64,000 nt of DNA, from contig OZ020490.1 in NCBI GenBank assembly GCA_963971405.1, positions 5,256,874-5,320,873 of the forward strand. The letters are read 5' to 3'. Below, one piece after another: positions 5,415 to 62,385 of this stretch; within the stretch, counting starts at the first letter, position 1; every line of letters begins with the position of its first letter. The position numbers were made by a program, and so were the translations under genes. The notes under the pieces are model-generated. The model did no database searches, had not been told where the DNA came from, and saw only the letters and a list, made by a program, of their open reading frames with translations. Source of the DNA: Psococerastis gibbosa (Eukaryota; Arthropoda; Insecta; Psocodea; Psocidae).

Positions 5415-6746
5415 TCAAAATTTAACTGATTTCACCATCTTATTTGACTCCAGCTGAACTACCACTACATTAGAACTACCCTCCACCATACTACAGCAAA
5501 GCCACTTACTCGCTAACTGGAGTCCAAACATGACGCCAAATCCAACAATAATTGCAATGAGTTGAAGAACGCCTGACTGAGAATTGGCGCGTTCCCTTGA
5601 AAGCACTTCAAAGAAGACAACGTAGAGGATGGTACCAGCAGCCATCCCCTGAAGAACAGTAGTTGTAATATCAGAAGCACTCGACTCGTCACCGTGAGAC
5701 AGTGCAATGCCAATACCAATCCCGATTGGTGTCACAATGGCAAATGTGCCCAAATACAAAACCATCAACAACATCCTTGTTTTCGAACTGAGAAGCTCGA
5801 TCCCAACACAAAACGATATCACAAACTTGTGCGCTGCTATCGCGCCAGCCAAGTACCAAACATTGGAAGACTCTTTACGTTCGAGGCCAACTGCTAATCC
5901 TTCAAAAATTGCATGAAAACTCAACGCCAGAATTGTGCAGAATGCTCGGATTGATTTGGCAAGGCTTCCTGATTCATCAGTGGGATCGTCTTCGAAGGAA
6001 GTGTGAGAGTGCTGGTGGTGGAAACCTTTGTGGGGATCATCTTGTCTCTTCGTGTGGTTGAGAATAATTTCAGGTTCGATCATTTTCGGGAGATAATCCA
6101 AATCAGGGTTGTTCTCAGTAATCGTTGAATTGTTGCTGGCAGTGTCAAGAAGGATTTGCGTCGAAATTGACTTCGAAGCACAATCACTATGGCTTAGTGA
6201 TACTCTTGGGATAAATGTAGGAGTATTCTCCAAATTAGCCCGTGAGCATTTTCGAAGGCTTAGTGTTCTATGAAGGATAGCTTCATCGTCGCAATGCTCC
6301 TGTTTCTTATCCAAACACGAGTGGACGAGTTCTTCTATGAAATATACGAAGAAAAATCCCAAACAAAACACTAGTTCTGAGATTTGAATGTCGTGGGCAT
6401 ACTCTGGCAGTTTGCCTTCGTCGTGGAGTTTATCGAATTCTTCTCGGATTTCGGGTTGAAGGTGGATAAATGTTGTGAACATTAGGACACCCCCTCCGAA
6501 ACAAAGTAGCAGGGATAGCGTTAAACTTCTGCCATTGCCGGCTTTCTCTAAGTTCCAACTGAACCATCTGTTAAGCTGCACAGGGACGATTCCAACGAGG
6601 AATGAAACGATGCCAAGAACTAAAATAGAGACGATTTTAGCGATGAGAATGGAATTTTCATCGTCAGCTTCATCGTCATTATGTTCTCGACCAGTTCCGG
6701 TTGCGTTTTTGAGAATTTCTGGGATAATCGAGTAAGGAGCCGCCAT
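5415..6746 (-). CDS. ZIP-family zinc transporter (SLC39A1/2/3-like), 443 aa, single coding exon
   Basis: Predicted to import Zn2+ (possibly other divalent metals) into the cytosol across the plasma or an organelle membrane. About eight membrane segments can be seen: residues ~33-54, 74-94, 122-142, 265-288, 295-318, 326-349, 361-382 and 393-415. Segment 4 carries the ZIP signature HAIFEGLAVGLE (278-289) and segment 5 carries AAHKFVISF (304-312). These hold the conserved His, Glu and Gly of the intramembrane metal site. The long loop between segments 3 and 4 has the His-rich stretch HKGFHHQHSH (239-248), a usual place for metal sensing. The length is normal to slightly long for an animal SLC39A1-3 member. 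The start is favoured by A at -3 (actaaaATGG) and by a splice acceptor 74 nt upstream. There is no internal stop or intron. Family assignment is firm. Which of the SLC39A1, 2 or 3 orthologues it is cannot be told by eye. Confidence 0.95.
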   Translation of the reverse strand: MAAPYSIIPEILKNATGTGREHNDDEADDENSILIAKIVSILVLGIVSFLVGIVPVQLNRWFSWNLEKAGNGRSLTLSLLLCFGGGVLMFTTFIHLQPEIREEFDKLHDEGKLPEYAHDIQISELVFCLGFFFVYFIEELVHSCLDKKQEHCDDEAILHRTLSLRKCSRANLENTPTFIPRVSLSHSDCASKSISTQILLDTASNNSTITENNPDLDYLPKMIEPEIILNHTKRQDDPHKGFHHQHSHTSFEDDPTDESGSLAKSIRAFCTILALSFHAIFEGLAVGLERKESSNVWYLAGAIAAHKFVISFCVGIELLSSKTRMLLMVLYLGTFAIVTPIGIGIGIALSHGDESSASDITTTVLQGMAAGTILYVVFFEVLSRERANSQSGVLQLIAIIVGFGVMFGLQLASKWLCCSMVEGSSNVVVVQLESNKMVKSVKF

Positions 6747-26690: not shown

Positions 26691-27537
26691 TATTGTAGAA
26701 AGGGGTTGGATTTCCCTTTGGGTCAGGGCTCAATTTATGCCCCCCCCCCCCCTCAGTTCTGAATCCACCCCACTTATTGAATGACACAACCATATACAAT
26801 TAGGTACAGTAATCCAGATTATCCTCTGTTTGTTTACTTCTGAATTTATGCGGCCTGGTCCCAGTCGCAGGTAACAAAAGCACAGAGAATTAGACAGGCT
26901 ACCTATTTCATCTCTCTTTGCGTTCAAAGCCCAAAAGTACACTAGTCACCATAACATGTAGGTACATAAAGAGTATGAAGTACCTACCTAAAATTTATGT
27001 GAGCTCAGGTTTACGGCACATCACAACTGACGTACCGCTTCTCGACATCCGTGCTCATGTAGACAGGTTGTTAATTAAAGAAGAACAAAGATAAGACAGG
27101 TATATGCTGTGATATGCACATATACCATCCTTAAAGGCGACAAGATGCATCGCGAATTTAACAATGACGCCAAAAGGTAGCCTACAGTATGTAGGAATAG
27201 CGGATCCACATGACTCCCCCCTCCCCCCAAATGAGTAAATTCATGAGATAATAAAAAATGAATAAAATTTAACTTTGGCGCGGTTTCCACCGACCTGCAA
27301 GGGCAAAATACACATACGGTGACGTGGTAGCAGATATAATTAATAAAGGCGGGGTTTCCACCGACCTCTCATTGCAGAATGCAAATAACATTGACGGAAA
27401 TTTAAATTTTTCTTTTTATAGTAATCTATTAAAATGTTAGTACTTAACATATCCCATGACGCCATTTTTTAATTTTAGTTTGTTTGTGATTTTACTCTAT
27501 GATCGTTGATCAATTTTAACTATGGCATATAGAGTAA

Positions 27538-27775
27538 GGCGGGGTTTTTACACATACACATACATAAGGTTAGCATGAAAACAAGACTTTATACTTTATT
27601 GTTCGCCTTTTGTTCGCAATAAAGTCGTTTTTTCATTTCATTTCATTTCATTTCATACGTCAATGGTAAATATGGTTTTGACGTGGTAGCAGACATTTTT
27701 AGTATGACTTTAATGTCTGCTAAAACGTCAATACCACATTTACCATTGACCATTGACGTATGTGGAAACCCCGCC
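27538..27775. mobile_element. third-level palindromic MITE (GGCGGGG, TAA duplication)
   Basis: Inserted in the core of the inner composite element. The 3-bp duplication TAA lies at 27535-27537 and 27776-27778. The empty site gagTAAaac is still visible in the 42.8 kb copy. Its right arm matches the solo copy at 62214-62344. Its left arm is itself broken by a LINE 3' end at about 27557-27655. Confidence 0.85.
27557..27655 (+). repeat. LINE 3'-UTR fragment nested inside the MITE
   Basis: Contains ttagcatgaaaacaagac, ttattgttcgcc and aataaagtcg, followed by (TTTCA)n. The same 3' UTR text follows the LINE at 61.3 kb and occurs at 24.4, 25.8 and 39.6 kb. It is the fourth and youngest layer of the nest. 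Confidence 0.75.
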
Positions 27776-28054
27776 TAAAACAACAATTTCCGTCAATATC
27801 ATTTGCATTCTGCAATAAGAGATCGGTGGAAACCCCGCCTTTATTGATGATATCTGCTCCCACGTCACCGTATGTGTATTTTGCACTTGCACGTCGTTGG
27901 AAACCACGCCTTTTCAACAAAAAATTACCTTTTAAACTTACATGCAACTTTTGACCCCCCCCCCCTAAATTTTCCGCTGGGACCGCCCTTGGTATGTAGG
28001 CTTCTTATATTTGGTGGGGCTAAGGTTGGATAAAAAATATATTCTTCTTCTGCT

Positions 28055-35000: not shown

Positions 35001-38000
35001 TCTTAAAGTAAGGAAACACGCATCTCAATGTAAACACAAGACTAAACTTCCAGCATATTATAGGGGTCTTCACAGTGTTGGTGTAATCGAGTTATCGAGT
35101 TAGATGTGCTATCCAAGTTAACACACAATCGTGAGTGGACCTCGGGAGTGAGTTATCATGCTATATCGAAAACATTTGAGAAGGCTGTTTACAAACATGG
35201 CCAACTCCAAGTTGTAGAATTTTTCAGGAGAGGGGATTTTCTGTTGAAAATTGCATTAAGCTTATAGCTAACCCCAGACTTCTCAGCGCTTCTGTGCGCA
35301 ATCTGGGTGCTTTTGTCACTTTATTTTACAATGTACAGATGGACATTAAAATTTTCTGCAAGGTTGGATCAAAACCCCATTTTGTGAAAAAATGGAGTTT
35401 GTAACCAAGCTCCTCATTTAACAGGGTAAACAACGTGGTAGTAGTCAGACGTTCGTGGCACGGTTTTAAAGTAAGTGGCAGAACTATTCTAGTGCCACAT
35501 TTGTTTATATTTTTTGTTCATTTTGGTTATTATAATTTTAAGTATTTACGGTAATTGCTTGTGATAATAGATTATACAAATAAATTTTAATACTACAAAA
35601 TTTTAAACGCGTGTTTCAAATCAATCAGCAAACACATAGATGGCGGCGGTCAAACCTGAGCTATCGATCGCAGCGCAAGTTAAATAGCACACTTAACCAA
35701 CTTGGAAGTGCGTTTAGGATAGCACGCTGGTTAGCTTGGTTATCGGTGTGTTAACTTAACTTGATATAACACACTTAACTTAACTTAACACGAACACTAT
35801 GAAGACACCTATACATCCTGATCTCTGTTCTCCAGTAGAATTATAATAGGAATGTAAGAGACAGTCGAAGGAGGAGAAGCCTTATAAGTGTAAAATTCCA
35901 ATATCTCATGAAATATCAGTCGTAGAGCTGTCAAAAATATCAGGGCAAACAGAAGACATTTTCCTGGGCATTTTGATACATAATTTTTTTCATCTTTCTA
36001 ACAAAGATTGGCTACAATGATTGAATTTTATTTGTACAAAAAACGGTTGATGTAGTAATCCGGTCTGCCGAGGAAATAGTTCAAAAACTTCAGACTACTG
36101 AAGAGTTCAAGAACTGAGGCCAATTAGTGTTAGTGTTTCGGCTTATTGTTCTGTTTGGCATATTCTTGATTTTTAATAATTCCTGTTTATTTTAGCTTAT
36201 GCCGCTGCTGGTGTCTTTACGCAAATGCGCCCACAGTAAAATGTTGGACACGTACGTAAGCAAGCTATTGGACTTGGCGTCCGAAGAAACATTCCGTTTG
36301 GCGTACATGGCGAGAGATGCTATCAGGGTGGACCCTCCTATATCGATATCGCAAAAGGCTGTGGCTTCGATACATGGTTTAATGGACTACCATCAGCAGC
36401 TAGACCACGTAAGTTATCGAGTACAAGTGTATACCTAGGTAGTATCGACTGTCAAGTACAAGTGCATAGTATCGACTATCGAGTACAAGTGACCTGGTTG
36501 CTCTCCGCAACCCTCCGCCATCTTGTCAATATGATCCTCAACGTAAGATTATTGGACGTGTCGTGTACGCGTCCTTAGTCATTTAATCATTGTTTTTATT
36601 TTTCAATTTTTATTTTTAGGAGAAGACCGTTCTTCTTTTTCAAACACTGGTGTGGGTCCTCAAGAATTTCGTGCCCACTACTTGCGATGTGGACGAAGAC
36701 CCGGCACCCAGTGAAATCGTGGAGACTCGCCACCTGTGCGTCACGCTGACGCATCTCCTAAACGCGGTCCTGAGCGCACTTTGTACCATTACAGAGGAGT
36801 GCAAGGTATCTTGGAGTGAGGCTTTTGAAGGTCTCTGCATCCTGATGTTGTGCCATTGGCTACTGAAGAATCCTGAGCTCCCTTCGAAGGTGAGTATATG
36901 TCATCACCGTCATCATTATCTGCAATTAGATTTAACAAAGGTTAGTTGGACTTAAATTACCTGTTGTGCATAGTCATCACGCCGAGTGGTTAGAGAGCTT
37001 GCATTTCAATCGGGAGATCAAGAGCATTGAATGTACTTAGTCACGATGAATGTACTAGGGCCGTCCTCGTCTTCTTCCCTCAGCTTCGATATGTTTTACC
37101 CGCTTTATTAGGTCATTCGGCTTCTGGACTGAAGTCCTGGAAGTCACTGGAACAAACTACGCAAATGCTGAAATATCTCATTTTTATTGTTACAGACAAC
37201 CGTGCTTACCTTACGGATGACCCGTCTAGCAATCGCACAGTTCATGCCTCCCAATCTAGCCCTTCTCGTAGACGACGTCAAAGGAACATCAATGGAAGGC
37301 ATTGGGCCCATACTTCAACTAAAACTCCACGATCCACACTGGGAAGTCCGCGACTCTGCCCTCGAAGTAGTCACAGTCATTGCCGATCTAAGTCTGAACA
37401 AATTCCCCGTCTTTCAAGAGTTCCTACTCGAACTAAAGTACTATCCACTAATTGTTTCGATACTCGAAGGCGATTCCGAGAGTTATGTTCGAGCGTCTGC
37501 GATAAAATCGATAATCTCAATTGTCCCGGTTACCAAAGTGTGGAATGCTTGTTTGGTGAATTTGGAAGTGCCTAGGCTTGTTATGGGTATATTAAGAGGT
37601 GATACGGAAGGGATTGTTAGAAGAGAGGCGGCGCTTCTGATTGCTGCCATGTACCAGAATGGGAGAATTCCCGGGGCATTGCTGGGGGAAGCATACGAAA
37701 CAATGCTCAAAATAATGACGTCTGATCTTCATTGGGAGGTGAAAGTAAACGGTTTAGATTTTTGGTCACGTGTTATAGAAAATCGGCTACAGGAACAAGG
37801 CATGGTGGACGGCGTTTTCCCGCCAGTTACATTTTCGCGGGAAAATAAGAAGATTACCACGCTTACCGAAGCTGAGATCAAACTGAGGCTTTCTAAGGTT
37901 ATGACGGAGCTTTCGAAACTGGGCTGCTTAAACGCGTTGCTACAAACGCTTTATGACGATTGTGACGCAGCGGTTGTGAATAAATCTACAAAAGTTACCG

Positions 38001-38446
38001 GAGATTTTGTGGCGATGCTTAGATTATATAATTTTCTGCCGGTAGAAGTAAATGACGGTAAGAAACGAAAGCCTGGGTTTCCGTTTGATGGTAAACCGGA
38101 AAAAGTATTGACGAACCGTGCTTCGAACTCGAGTCCCCAGTGTAATAAAGAGAGTTCGTCGTCTGCAGATGTTATTGAGGATATTGTTAACGCAACGGAT
38201 ATGAAACTTTTGGCGGGAGTTTTGGTTGGTACGGAGCAGAATAATGGATGTTGCTGTAAAGAGGCTGTGGAAATGGTGGATGTTGAGACTTTTTTGACGC
38301 ATATTCAAGATGTGGATTTTGCTGAAAGTAGTGAAGAGATAAATGAGCAGGATCAGGATGTCTCAAATGATCTTTCGGCGTTATTGGACGCAGTACTCTC
38401 AATTTCGGGGGATAGTAGTGAAAATAATGTACCGGATTGTTACTAA
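32028..38446 (+). CDS. BRAT1: BRAT1 orthologue, HEAT-repeat protein, 7 exons, 909 aa
   Basis: Exons read as 32028-32157, 32854-33213, 34163-34432, 34730-34965, 36196-36408, 36620-36889 and 37196-38446. All introns are GT..AG, phases are 1,1,1,0,0,0, and the sum is 2730 nt with no stop. The protein is a run of helical HEAT-type repeats with no membrane segment. Residues ~538-550 (HDPHWEVRDSALE) and ~586-595 (DSESYVRASA), a second DLHWEV near 670, and the final DCY match the vertebrate BRAT1 pattern. Vertebrate BRAT1 was found as a partner of BRCA1 and ATM. More recent work links it to the Integrator endonuclease INTS11, with its C-terminal tail entering the nuclease active site. The start has A at -3, and MAVSKEQW opens a plausible N-terminal helix. 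The last exon (1251 nt) holds almost half the protein. An acidic Ser-rich linker precedes the tail. Introns 3, 4 and 6 carry repeat fragments. Exon borders are by eye; exons 1 and 4 are least certain. Confidence 0.88.
32158..32853 (+). other. BRAT1 intron 1
   Basis: Starts gtaaga, ends ctacttgtag. No repeat or frame recognised within. Confidence 0.6.
34480..34705 (+). repeat. repeat family C fragment in BRAT1 intron 3
   Basis: gtgtgcacagcgttgggagc, cccaagtggttcggaatcca and tcaggaggtccaca. The 3' third is missing. It ends about 25 nt before the exon 4 acceptor. Confidence 0.72.
35175..35420 (+). repeat. dispersed repeat I in BRAT1 intron 4
   Basis: tgtttacaaacatggccaac to gtaaccaagctcctcattt. 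Collinear with the reverse of 17235-17470. Confidence 0.75.
35920..36120 (+). repeat. dispersed repeat G in BRAT1 intron 4
   Basis: gctgtcaaaaatatcagggc, ggctacaatgattgaatttt and gaggccaattagtgttag recur at 42080-42270. Confidence 0.6.
37040..37135 (-). repeat. LINE piece in BRAT1 intron 6
   Basis: gggccgtcctcgtcttcttc, cctcagcttcgatatgtttt and acccgctttattaggtcatt match the 53.6-54.1 kb units. It lies about 60 nt before the exon 7 acceptor. Confidence 0.7.
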
Positions 38447-42831: not shown

Positions 42832-43217
42832 GGCTGGGATTCCACAGACCTGCTAGTGCTAAATACAAATACGGTGACGCGGTAACAGACATTCAAGACT
42901 TAGGCGGGGTTTCCACCGACCTCGCATTGCAGAATGCAAATGACATTGACGGAAATTTGAATTTTTCTTTTTATAGAAATCTATTAAAATGTTTGTACTT
43001 AATGACGCCATTTTTTAATTTTAGTTTGTTTGTTTGTGATTTTACTCTATGATCATTGATCAATTTTAACTATGGCATAGAGTAAAACAAACATTTCCGT
43101 CAATGTCATTTACATTCTGCAATGCGAGGTCGATGGAAACCCCGCCTAAGTCTTGAATGTCTGTTACCACGTCACCGTATTTGTATTTAGCACTAGCAGG
43201 TCTGTGGAATCCCCACC
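42832..43217. mobile_element. composite palindromic MITE, 386 bp, TTA duplication
   Basis: Outer ends GGCTGGGATTCCACAGACCT and its mirror image are flanked by TTA at 42829-42831 and 43218-43220. The inner element, 42903-43146, has GGCGGGGTTTCC ends and sits between gactTA and TAagtc. The centre retains aatggcg-type and tgatcaattttaac text shared with 47873-48314. The three-base TTA/TAA duplications point to PIF/Harbinger. Confidence 0.88.
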
Positions 43218-60364: not shown

Positions 60365-60744
60365 GGCGCCCATTCCACCGACGGGCTAGGGCTATTTACA
60401 AAAACAGTGACGTGGTAGCAGACATTCAAGACTTAGGCGGGGTTTCCACCGACCTCGCATTGCAGAATTGACGGAAATGTTTATTTTCCTCTATGCCATA
60501 GTTAAAATTTATCAATGATCATACAGTAAAATCACAAACAAACTTAAATTAAAAAATGGCGTTATGGGATATGTTAAGTAGAAACATTTTAATAGATTTC
60601 TATAAAAAGAAAAATTCAAATTTCCGTCAATGTCATTTGCATTCTGCAATGCGAGGTCTGTGGAAACGCCACCTAAGTCTTGAATGTCTGCTATAACGTC
60701 ACCGTTTTTGTAAATAGCCCTAGCCGGTCGGTGGAATGGGCGCC
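60365..60744. mobile_element. composite palindromic MITE, 380 bp
   Basis: Outer ends GGCGCCCATTCCACCGAC and its mirror image. Flanks are TTA on the left and TAA on the right, which fits insertion at TTAA with TA shared. The inner element is 60436-60673. It has the same architecture as 42832-43217, with the centre inverted (the aatggcg text is on the plus strand here). Confidence 0.87.
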
Positions 60745-61289
60745 TAAGGGGAAGTAGGAAATGAAGTAAGATGGGAGAATAGAACTGCAGTTCTTCTATT
60801 ATAAAAATGATAAAATGATGACATAAGGAAACCTGTTTCAGTGTTTCCCTAACATTTCTACTTAACCCAACTCCTAGGCAGTGGCCAAAGCACCCAAAGC
60901 TATAAAAAAGTAGCATTTTCTATCAGATACAGTAAACAAATAATTTCGCATATTAGTTTTAAAGAAAAAGAAGGAATTGGCGCGAAAATGTCAATCACTG
61001 TCTAATTGCCACGTTTTTACGTATTTTTGTTGTTGACTAGCTTGTAATAACAAAGCTTCGAATTGCCATCCGCCCTTCCCAAAACTTTTTGTTTAATCCG
61101 CCACTGCTACTAGGTTTGGTAAACTGCACTTGGAGAATCGGAAACGGCCATATTTGTTGTTTATTTACATTTCAGTTTTGCTATTTATTTATTTTTTTTT
61201 TTTTTAATTTAAAAATGAGTTCTGCGACAGAAATTAATATTTAAAAAACAAAAGGAAACATTTGGCAAAAGGTAGACTACAGCAGCAGA

Positions 61290-62385
61290 TATTGAATTGA
61301 AAACGGCTTTATTGCAAAAAAATAAAGACGAACAATAAGACTATAAAGTCTTCTTTTCATGCTAACCTTAAAAAACAAAAACATTGTATTAATTATTGAT
61401 AGATGCTTAAAATTAAATAGAAAAGAAACAAGAATGAAAAGAGAGAGAAAAAGGATGGGGGTGGAATCCATTGTCGTCACCATTATGAGACCGGAGAGAG
61501 TCTCAAGCGTTATCTAAGATATAATGTTTAATTATTTTCTTAAAGCTACTTAGTGAACTAGCTGCCCTAACCTCCAATGGTAGGCGGTTCCAGTGGTGAA
61601 TAGCGTATAATATCGTAGATTGCCCATGTCTTGTGGTCTTATGTAGTGGTATTTCGTATATTGTGCCATTGCGCTGTGACTGTAATTTTGTGTATTTTTG
61701 TATGATGTAGGAAGGTGCGCTTGAGTGGGTTACTTTATACATTAGCATCAGTGCGTGGTACTGTGTGTTTTGGTCAGTGGTTAGGAAATTTAGTACTTTG
61801 TACTGTGGGCTGATATGGTCGCGGCGCTTTGTATTAGAAATAAATCGTATGCAACAGTTCATTACCCGGTGCAAACGACGAGACAGATAATCCCTGCGAC
61901 TTAATGACAGTACAATACAATAATCAAAAAGTGGGGTAATAAGCGTAGAAACAATATTTTTCTATTTATTAATTGGTAAAAATTTTCTAATTCTGTTCAA
62001 GGGATATAAACATTTATAAATTTTGCTACAGGTTTTATTACTTCACTGTTGATAATAATGGTTGACCTTAAGGTATTTTGTAATTTTACCACAGTATTGT
62101 GGCTGCCTATCAGCATTGCCTGACTCTTAGTCGGGTTCAACTTGAGACCATGTTTTATTGACCATTTCAAAACGTTCTCTAAATCAGCATTAATATCAGC
62201 TATGGCGGGGTTTCCACATACGTCAATAGTCAATAGTAAATGTGGTATTGACGTTTTAGCAGACATTAAAGACATACTAAAAATGTCTGCTACCACGTCA
62301 AAACCATATTTACTATTGACTATTGACATATGTGGAAACCCGCCTATGGCTGTTCGCATATTCATAAGCTGATAGTCAAAAGCAA
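61290..62385 (-). pseudogene. 5'-truncated LINE with RT C-terminus and 3' UTR, broken by a MITE
   Basis: On the minus strand, LENVLKWSIKHGLKLNPTKS (from ~62200) is the region after the RT catalytic motif. From 61874 down come MHRVMNCCIRFISNTK, HALMLMYKVTH, PLHKTTRHGQST and HWNRLPLEVRAA. A 3' UTR with gaagactttatagtcttatt and aataaagccg ends at 61290. The stretch 61875-62000 has lost the frame. The MITE at 62214-62344 splits the upper part. Confidence 0.85.
62214..62344. mobile_element. solo palindromic MITE inside a LINE, 131 bp
   Basis: GGCGGGGTTTCCACATACG and its mirror image form an almost full-length hairpin. A 3-bp duplication TAT flanks it (62211-62213 and 62345-62347). It interrupts a reverse transcriptase frame on the minus strand. 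Removing it and one TAT joins ...MRTAI to ADINADLEN. Confidence 0.88.

Follow-up and report, generated by a model that had tools for sequence, protein, structure and literature searches.

Insertion order of a four-layer nest of mobile elements in the genome of Psococerastis gibbosa

Introduction

Transposons inserted into one another have long been known, and REANNOTATE reportedly infers the insertion order of nested transposons from which element interrupts which. MITEs of the hAT class carry 8-bp target duplications.

For the PHIS superfamily, the part of PMC4482050 used here gives TWA as the target of PIF/Harbinger elements and TNA, preceded by C and followed by G, as the target of NuwaII. 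Tourist-like mPing of rice, as described in the part of PMC4561436 used here, is, like the families of the two inner MITEs of the present nest, a mobile MITE with 3-bp TTA or TAA duplications, and the same source proposes that a staggered cut at the duplication releases Tourist-like elements.

Here we describe four elements nested within each other in a stretch of 64,000 nucleotides of the Psococerastis gibbosa genome (assembly GCA_963971405.1, contig OZ020490.1, positions 5,256,874 to 5,320,873 of the forward strand). This whole stretch is referred to as the window, and positions are given within it. The order of insertion was read in the manner described for REANNOTATE, from which nothing differs in principle, with the addition that sister copies supply empty sites for three of the four steps. 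The nest is a correct, careful observation of ordinary genome history, and its value does not go beyond that of a tidy illustration of how transposition order can be read.

Structure of the nest

The initial annotation had proposed a four-layer nest with a G-run hAT MITE and its 8-bp duplication outermost, and direct reading of the sequence bore out its coordinates nearly to the base. An exact GTATGTAG stands at both sides of the hAT element, and the TTT flanks of the composite and the TAA duplication of the inner MITE, at 27535 and 27776, lie at the positions proposed. The features of the nest and of related copies in the window are as follows.

27187-27194: left 8-bp target duplication GTATGTAG, identical to 27992-27999
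27195-27991, + strand: layer 1, hAT-type MITE, 160 bp without its insert (27195-27276 plus 27914-27991)
27274-27276: left TTT duplication of layer 2, from comparison with sister hAT copies
27277-27910, + strand: layer 2, composite palindromic MITE, about 393 bp without its insert
27277-27347 and 27840-27910: A arms of layer 2, 71 bp each, enclosing unit B
27348-27839, + strand: unit B within layer 2, with a second terminal repeat pair, GGCGGGGTTTCCAC
27535-27537: left TAA duplication of layer 3; empty site in sister composites, consensus GCATAGAGTAAAACAA
27538-27775, + strand: layer 3, short palindromic MITE, about 135 bp, interrupted
27559-27563: left CATAC duplication of layer 4, adjoining an ACACAT repeat; the family arm is GGCGGGGTTTCCACATACGTC
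27565-27653, + strand: layer 4, short retroposon with a (CATTT)n tail, splitting the left arm of layer 3
27654-27658: right CATAC duplication of layer 4
27776-27778: right TAA duplication of layer 3; empty site in sister composites
27911-27913: right TTT duplication of layer 2, from comparison with sister hAT copies
27992-27999: right 8-bp target duplication GTATGTAG, identical to 27187-27194
42832-43217, + strand: sister composite without layer 3, TTA/TTA flanks, empty TAA kept
60365-60748, - strand: second composite without layer 3, ends approximate
62204-62344, + strand: sister of layer 3 without layer 4, TAT/TAT flanks

The assembly searched comprises 409 Mb in 68 contigs, with the window on contig 15. 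Each family search scored the best 40 candidates, so that the sister copies are the most nest-like ones and not a random sample. The hAT search listed 42 matches from 40 scored candidates, 40 of them spanning the joined site of the excised element and the other two being the nest's own halves. In the layer 3 search, carried out with the retroposon excised, 36 of the best 40 rows span the joined site; the remaining four (the nest's own and three others) begin at query base 16-21. The composite belongs to a high-copy family with 6699 first-look candidates, the best 40 of which were scored, and the best 40 scored for the retroposon comprise the nest's own copy (100%) and 39 more at 93-98%. Matches listed for all four layers fall on nine contigs of 23-54 Mb, and each layer of the nest is a dispersed family in its own right.

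Order of insertion

The four elements entered this locus in the order hAT MITE, composite, inner MITE, retroposon, as the initial annotation had proposed: each interruption is recorded by its duplications and, for layers 2, 3 and 4, by empty sites that a genome search recovered in sister copies. Sister hAT copies read AACTTTTCAAC where the nest reads AACTTT, the insert and then TTTTCAAC, and the insertion site of the composite was uninterrupted (GAATAAAACTCAACTTTTCAAC, at most 3 edits) in 29 of the 30 hAT copies fetched; the remaining one, L037, gave no match to the uninterrupted site. All 27 fetched composite copies lacked an insert at the inner-MITE site (at most 5 edits), where a 5-base deletion is present in L003 and a 4-base change in L082. 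Among 29 inner-MITE copies, the arm that the retroposon entered in the nest was uninterrupted in 27, the exceptions being L065, with a poly-A run in the arm, and L067, a long-arm variant. Within the window, the copies at 42.8 kb and 62.2 kb, put forward earlier as empty sites for layers 3 and 4, both behave as claimed. Spy-like insertion without duplication was rejected for layers 2 and 3, as their empty sites show 3 added bases.

The nest is thus almost certainly a stack of four independent transposition events at one site. We infer the enzymes of the four steps as follows. A hAT transposase would have inserted the hAT-type MITE via an 8-bp staggered cut, and a PHIS-type (PIF/Harbinger-like) transposase would have placed the composite in the middle of it with a 3-bp cut. 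The same or a related transposase, again with a 3-bp cut, may have placed the second short MITE in the composite. In the last step a CATTT-tailed retroposon would have been copied into the MITE arm by target-primed reverse transcription.

It is the interruptions, through duplications and empty sites, that show the order; the ages of the layers are compatible with it. Relative to the respective subfamily consensus, substitutions were counted at 9 of 121 reliable columns of the hAT layer (7.4%), 13 of 391 of the composite (3.3%), 1 of 120 of the inner MITE (0.8%) and 2 of 74 of the retroposon (2.7%, plus one indel). Divergence, proposed earlier as a check, therefore declines inward over layers 1-3, whereas the retroposon is not younger than the inner MITE by this measure and is not datable apart from it. 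Fisher tests gave p = 0.07 for hAT against composite, 0.21 for composite against inner MITE, 0.019 for hAT against inner MITE and 0.56 for inner MITE against retroposon, the hAT-inner contrast being the only significant one of the four. Ages running the other way, which the initial annotation had set against its own order, were not seen over layers 1-3, a weak test given the one significant contrast.

The same order (hAT first, PIF-like elements twice, LINE last) had also been read as successive eras of family activity. It stands for the locus, but a single nest does not establish such eras: the divergences of the sister copies overlap (hAT 3.3-15.4%, composite 1.0-11.5%, inner 0-2.5%, retroposon 0-5.4%). 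We consider it fairly probable that the order is right at this locus while the activity of the families overlapped, so that no order of family activity follows. At L062 an inner-family copy is found at the outer tail edge of an older retroposon relative, which of the two came first being uncertain. Several observations nevertheless agree with the earlier reading. The hAT copies are the most diverged, and hAT may really be earlier; moreover, no hAT match was found inside any of the split PIF-type MITEs that a script detected in the sequence examined. Within hAT copies, PIF-type MITEs were found by script in the window and at L079 and by eye at L120, the latter two being inner MITEs in hAT, and L090, together with its upstream part L110, shows a composite that contains a longer copy of the retroposon; all three loci outside the window fit the order first proposed.

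Identity of the layers

Assignment of layer 1 to the hAT superfamily, made earlier from duplication length and end sequence, is well supported. Like hAT MITEs, layer 1 has 8-bp duplications and the ends CAATGGCGGATCC and GGATCCGCCCTTG. Both ends were present in 25 of 30 hAT copies, the 5 others being set aside, and in 14 of these 25 the 8-bp flanks agreed at 7-8 positions, compared with 0 of 600 random pairs agreeing at 7 or 8 positions. Terminal inverted repeats are evident in the sister copies (CAATGGCGGATCCAC versus CAAGGGCGGATCCAGC) and degraded in the nest copy, which also differs from its sisters in that most of the G-rich stretch on the left is gone.

Layer 4 had been taken for the 3' end of a LINE, which is plausible. 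CATTT repeats form the 3' tail in the nest and in all 20 fetched copies (L089-L108), the short CATAC duplication was scored in the nest copy, and longer copies exist; on the other side, neither a reverse transcriptase nor a full-length parent was recovered, the longest frame over 1.9 kb of L109 (one extended copy listed) being 115 aa. A serious possibility, if somewhat short of probable, is that layer 4 is instead a short retroposon, some 75 bp long, that has a fixed 5' end of its own and is not a randomly truncated LINE. The common start at (T)AAGGTTAGC in the nest and in 16 of the 20 copies favours such a fixed end, but L090, L091 and L102 extend upstream by about 115-166 shared bases and L106 by about a dozen, a continuation that resembles a LINE 3' region.

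In layer 2, two A arms of 71 bp enclose the 249-bp unit B, each with terminal repeats of its own. Counting it as a single layer, as had been done, is right in that A and B repeat as one unit; the composite is, however, made of one element inside another. The joining of B to A probably lies far back, with A+B spreading as one since then, because diverged composite subfamilies with other arm sequences keep the same layout. No clear case of a free A or a free B was found in the sequence examined, and some copies lack an A arm. One of these, L042 (about 580-1010), is a composite without the right A arm that spans the outer left to the inner right terminus, with TAA on either side. This suggests that the inner ends of the composite still work, outer left and inner right ends having apparently been used together in this copy.

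The 3-bp flanks of layers 2 and 3 were surveyed in copies with an intact end pair, which excluded 8 of the 37 composites and 1 of the 39 inner-family copies. Identical flanks were found in 38 of 67 copies (composite 17/29, inner 21/38), whereas random pairing would give 8.7 and 8.2, respectively (about 17 in all). TTA and TAA made up most of the 38 matched flanks; the base at -4 was C in 20 of them, and that at +4 was G in 16. For comparison, C and G each make up about one fifth of the flanking DNA. The ends of both layers begin with GG (GGCGCGGTTTCC and GGCGGGGTTTCC). In the 3-bp TWA duplications, the flanking C and G and the GG ends, both layers resemble the PHIS elements of the part of PMC4482050 used here, and their identification as PIF/Harbinger-like (PHIS) is reasonably supported because of the C-TWA-G targets at matched duplications and the GG ends. 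The nest's own TTT duplication of layer 2 is off-consensus with respect to TWA. The two layers differ from the PHIS elements of that source in that many of their duplications are mismatched.

As to such a partner, a search for DDE_Tnp_4 gave 150 scored matches among 220 candidates, including many open frames with equal scores. Six of the 150 were opened with about 1 kb on each side, and no GGCGSGGTTTCC-type end pair flanked any of these six loci; the support for the PIF-like name proposed earlier comes from targets and ends. At L139 a looser pair of GGCGGGTATTCC ends, spanning 162 bp, lies to one side of the DDE_Tnp_4 frame. Equal-score DDE_Tnp_4 frames occur on C1, C2, C3, C12, C14 and others, dozens of them at 127.2 bits and most of 384 aa, and these open frames suggest recent Harbinger-type activity in the genome.

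Mismatched target duplications

Flanks of 3 bp were mismatched in 29 of the 67 copies with intact ends, 12 of them at the centre only. Point mutation is disfavoured as the cause, as 17 of 38 inner-family flanks are mismatched against a median divergence from consensus of 0.8% (29 copies). Two cases were compared with their hosts. At L084 (composite ends near 510-904) the sequence reads ACTTA, the element and TAATACTTTGG, where the host relative L032 has CCTTATACTTTGG; at L079 (about 286-620), an inner MITE in hAT counted outside the 67 surveyed copies, it reads ACTTA, the element and TAACAATAAACTTG, where the hAT family has ACTTACAAACAACTTG. Both show contiguous host flanks and exactly 3 added bases with a changed centre, TTA flanking one end of the element and TAA the other. 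Ectopic exchange is disfavoured for both, the host being contiguous.

From these two host-checked cases we entertain, as a rather doubtful idea, that many duplications of these young PHIS-type MITEs were mismatched from insertion on, perhaps with a 3-nt flap from the donor being ligated in place of a filled gap; a donor overhang retained at re-insertion would yield such mismatches. The nest's own layers 2 and 3, which have known hosts and matched duplications, run counter to this. In the part of PMC4561436 used here, the mismatched duplications of mPing are made constructs and not natural new insertions; we make no claim that natural ones are absent from the literature. If the mismatches were made at insertion, they would reveal what becomes of the overhangs of an excised element, and would be a reason not to discard MITE copies with non-matching duplications.

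Uniqueness of the nest and repeated use of the inner site

A 23-base pattern across the hAT/composite junction was searched in the one 409-Mb assembly with at most 3 mismatches and a reversed control. It occurred at 41 places, compared with 1 for the control, and the exact match was the nest locus only; within these limits the whole nest is therefore no repeated unit, so that the outcome which the initial annotation had named as fatal to its reading was not observed. The one-mismatch place, C13:16696277 (L135), proved to be a composite between AAA and AAA with no hAT element around it. The 39 places with 2-3 mismatches were counted from the pattern; among them, part of a tandem array (L136) was opened.

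The corresponding composite/inner pattern gave 111 places, compared with 3 for the control, and six loci were opened. Three (L113, L145, L146) are not composites. The other three are composites with an inner-type MITE at the place that layer 3 occupies in the nest:

L112, about 1248-1785: a T is lost from the right duplication
L143, about 19-488
L144, about 11-411

Movement of the whole nest, or of at least two of its layers, as a preformed unit is extremely improbable: the composite itself does repeat as a single unit (B between A arms), and the three loci above do hold an inner-type MITE at the same place, but their inner MITEs are of other subfamilies inside other composite subfamilies and hence separate from the nest, the inner element is missing from all 27 composite copies that were fetched because they resemble the nest, and a preformed hAT plus composite is refuted within the 23-base search. 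L112 and L143 share an inner subfamily and could stem from one common insertion. These three loci are re-use of a target site and not copies of the nest. Chance may explain the rate of re-use; a hotspot at the inner site was rejected, the three loci having been chosen by the junction pattern and a few per site being expected by chance (a rough estimate from several thousand composites, many thousand short MITEs and at least a dozen TWA sites per composite).

Other observations

The L136 array (C13:7737300-7738000, with matches to about 7739265) is a tandem array of 115-bp period derived from the MITE end GGCCCGGTTTCC, which we read as a satellite grown from a MITE. At L113 (about 1503-2130) an inner-family MITE has tandemly repeated right arms, and another copy lies downstream. 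The window also holds two long open frames, at 5415-6746 (- strand) and 37187-38446 (+ strand); we take the first to resemble a ZIP-type metal transporter, and the second presumably resembles a HEAT-repeat (BRAT1-like) protein.
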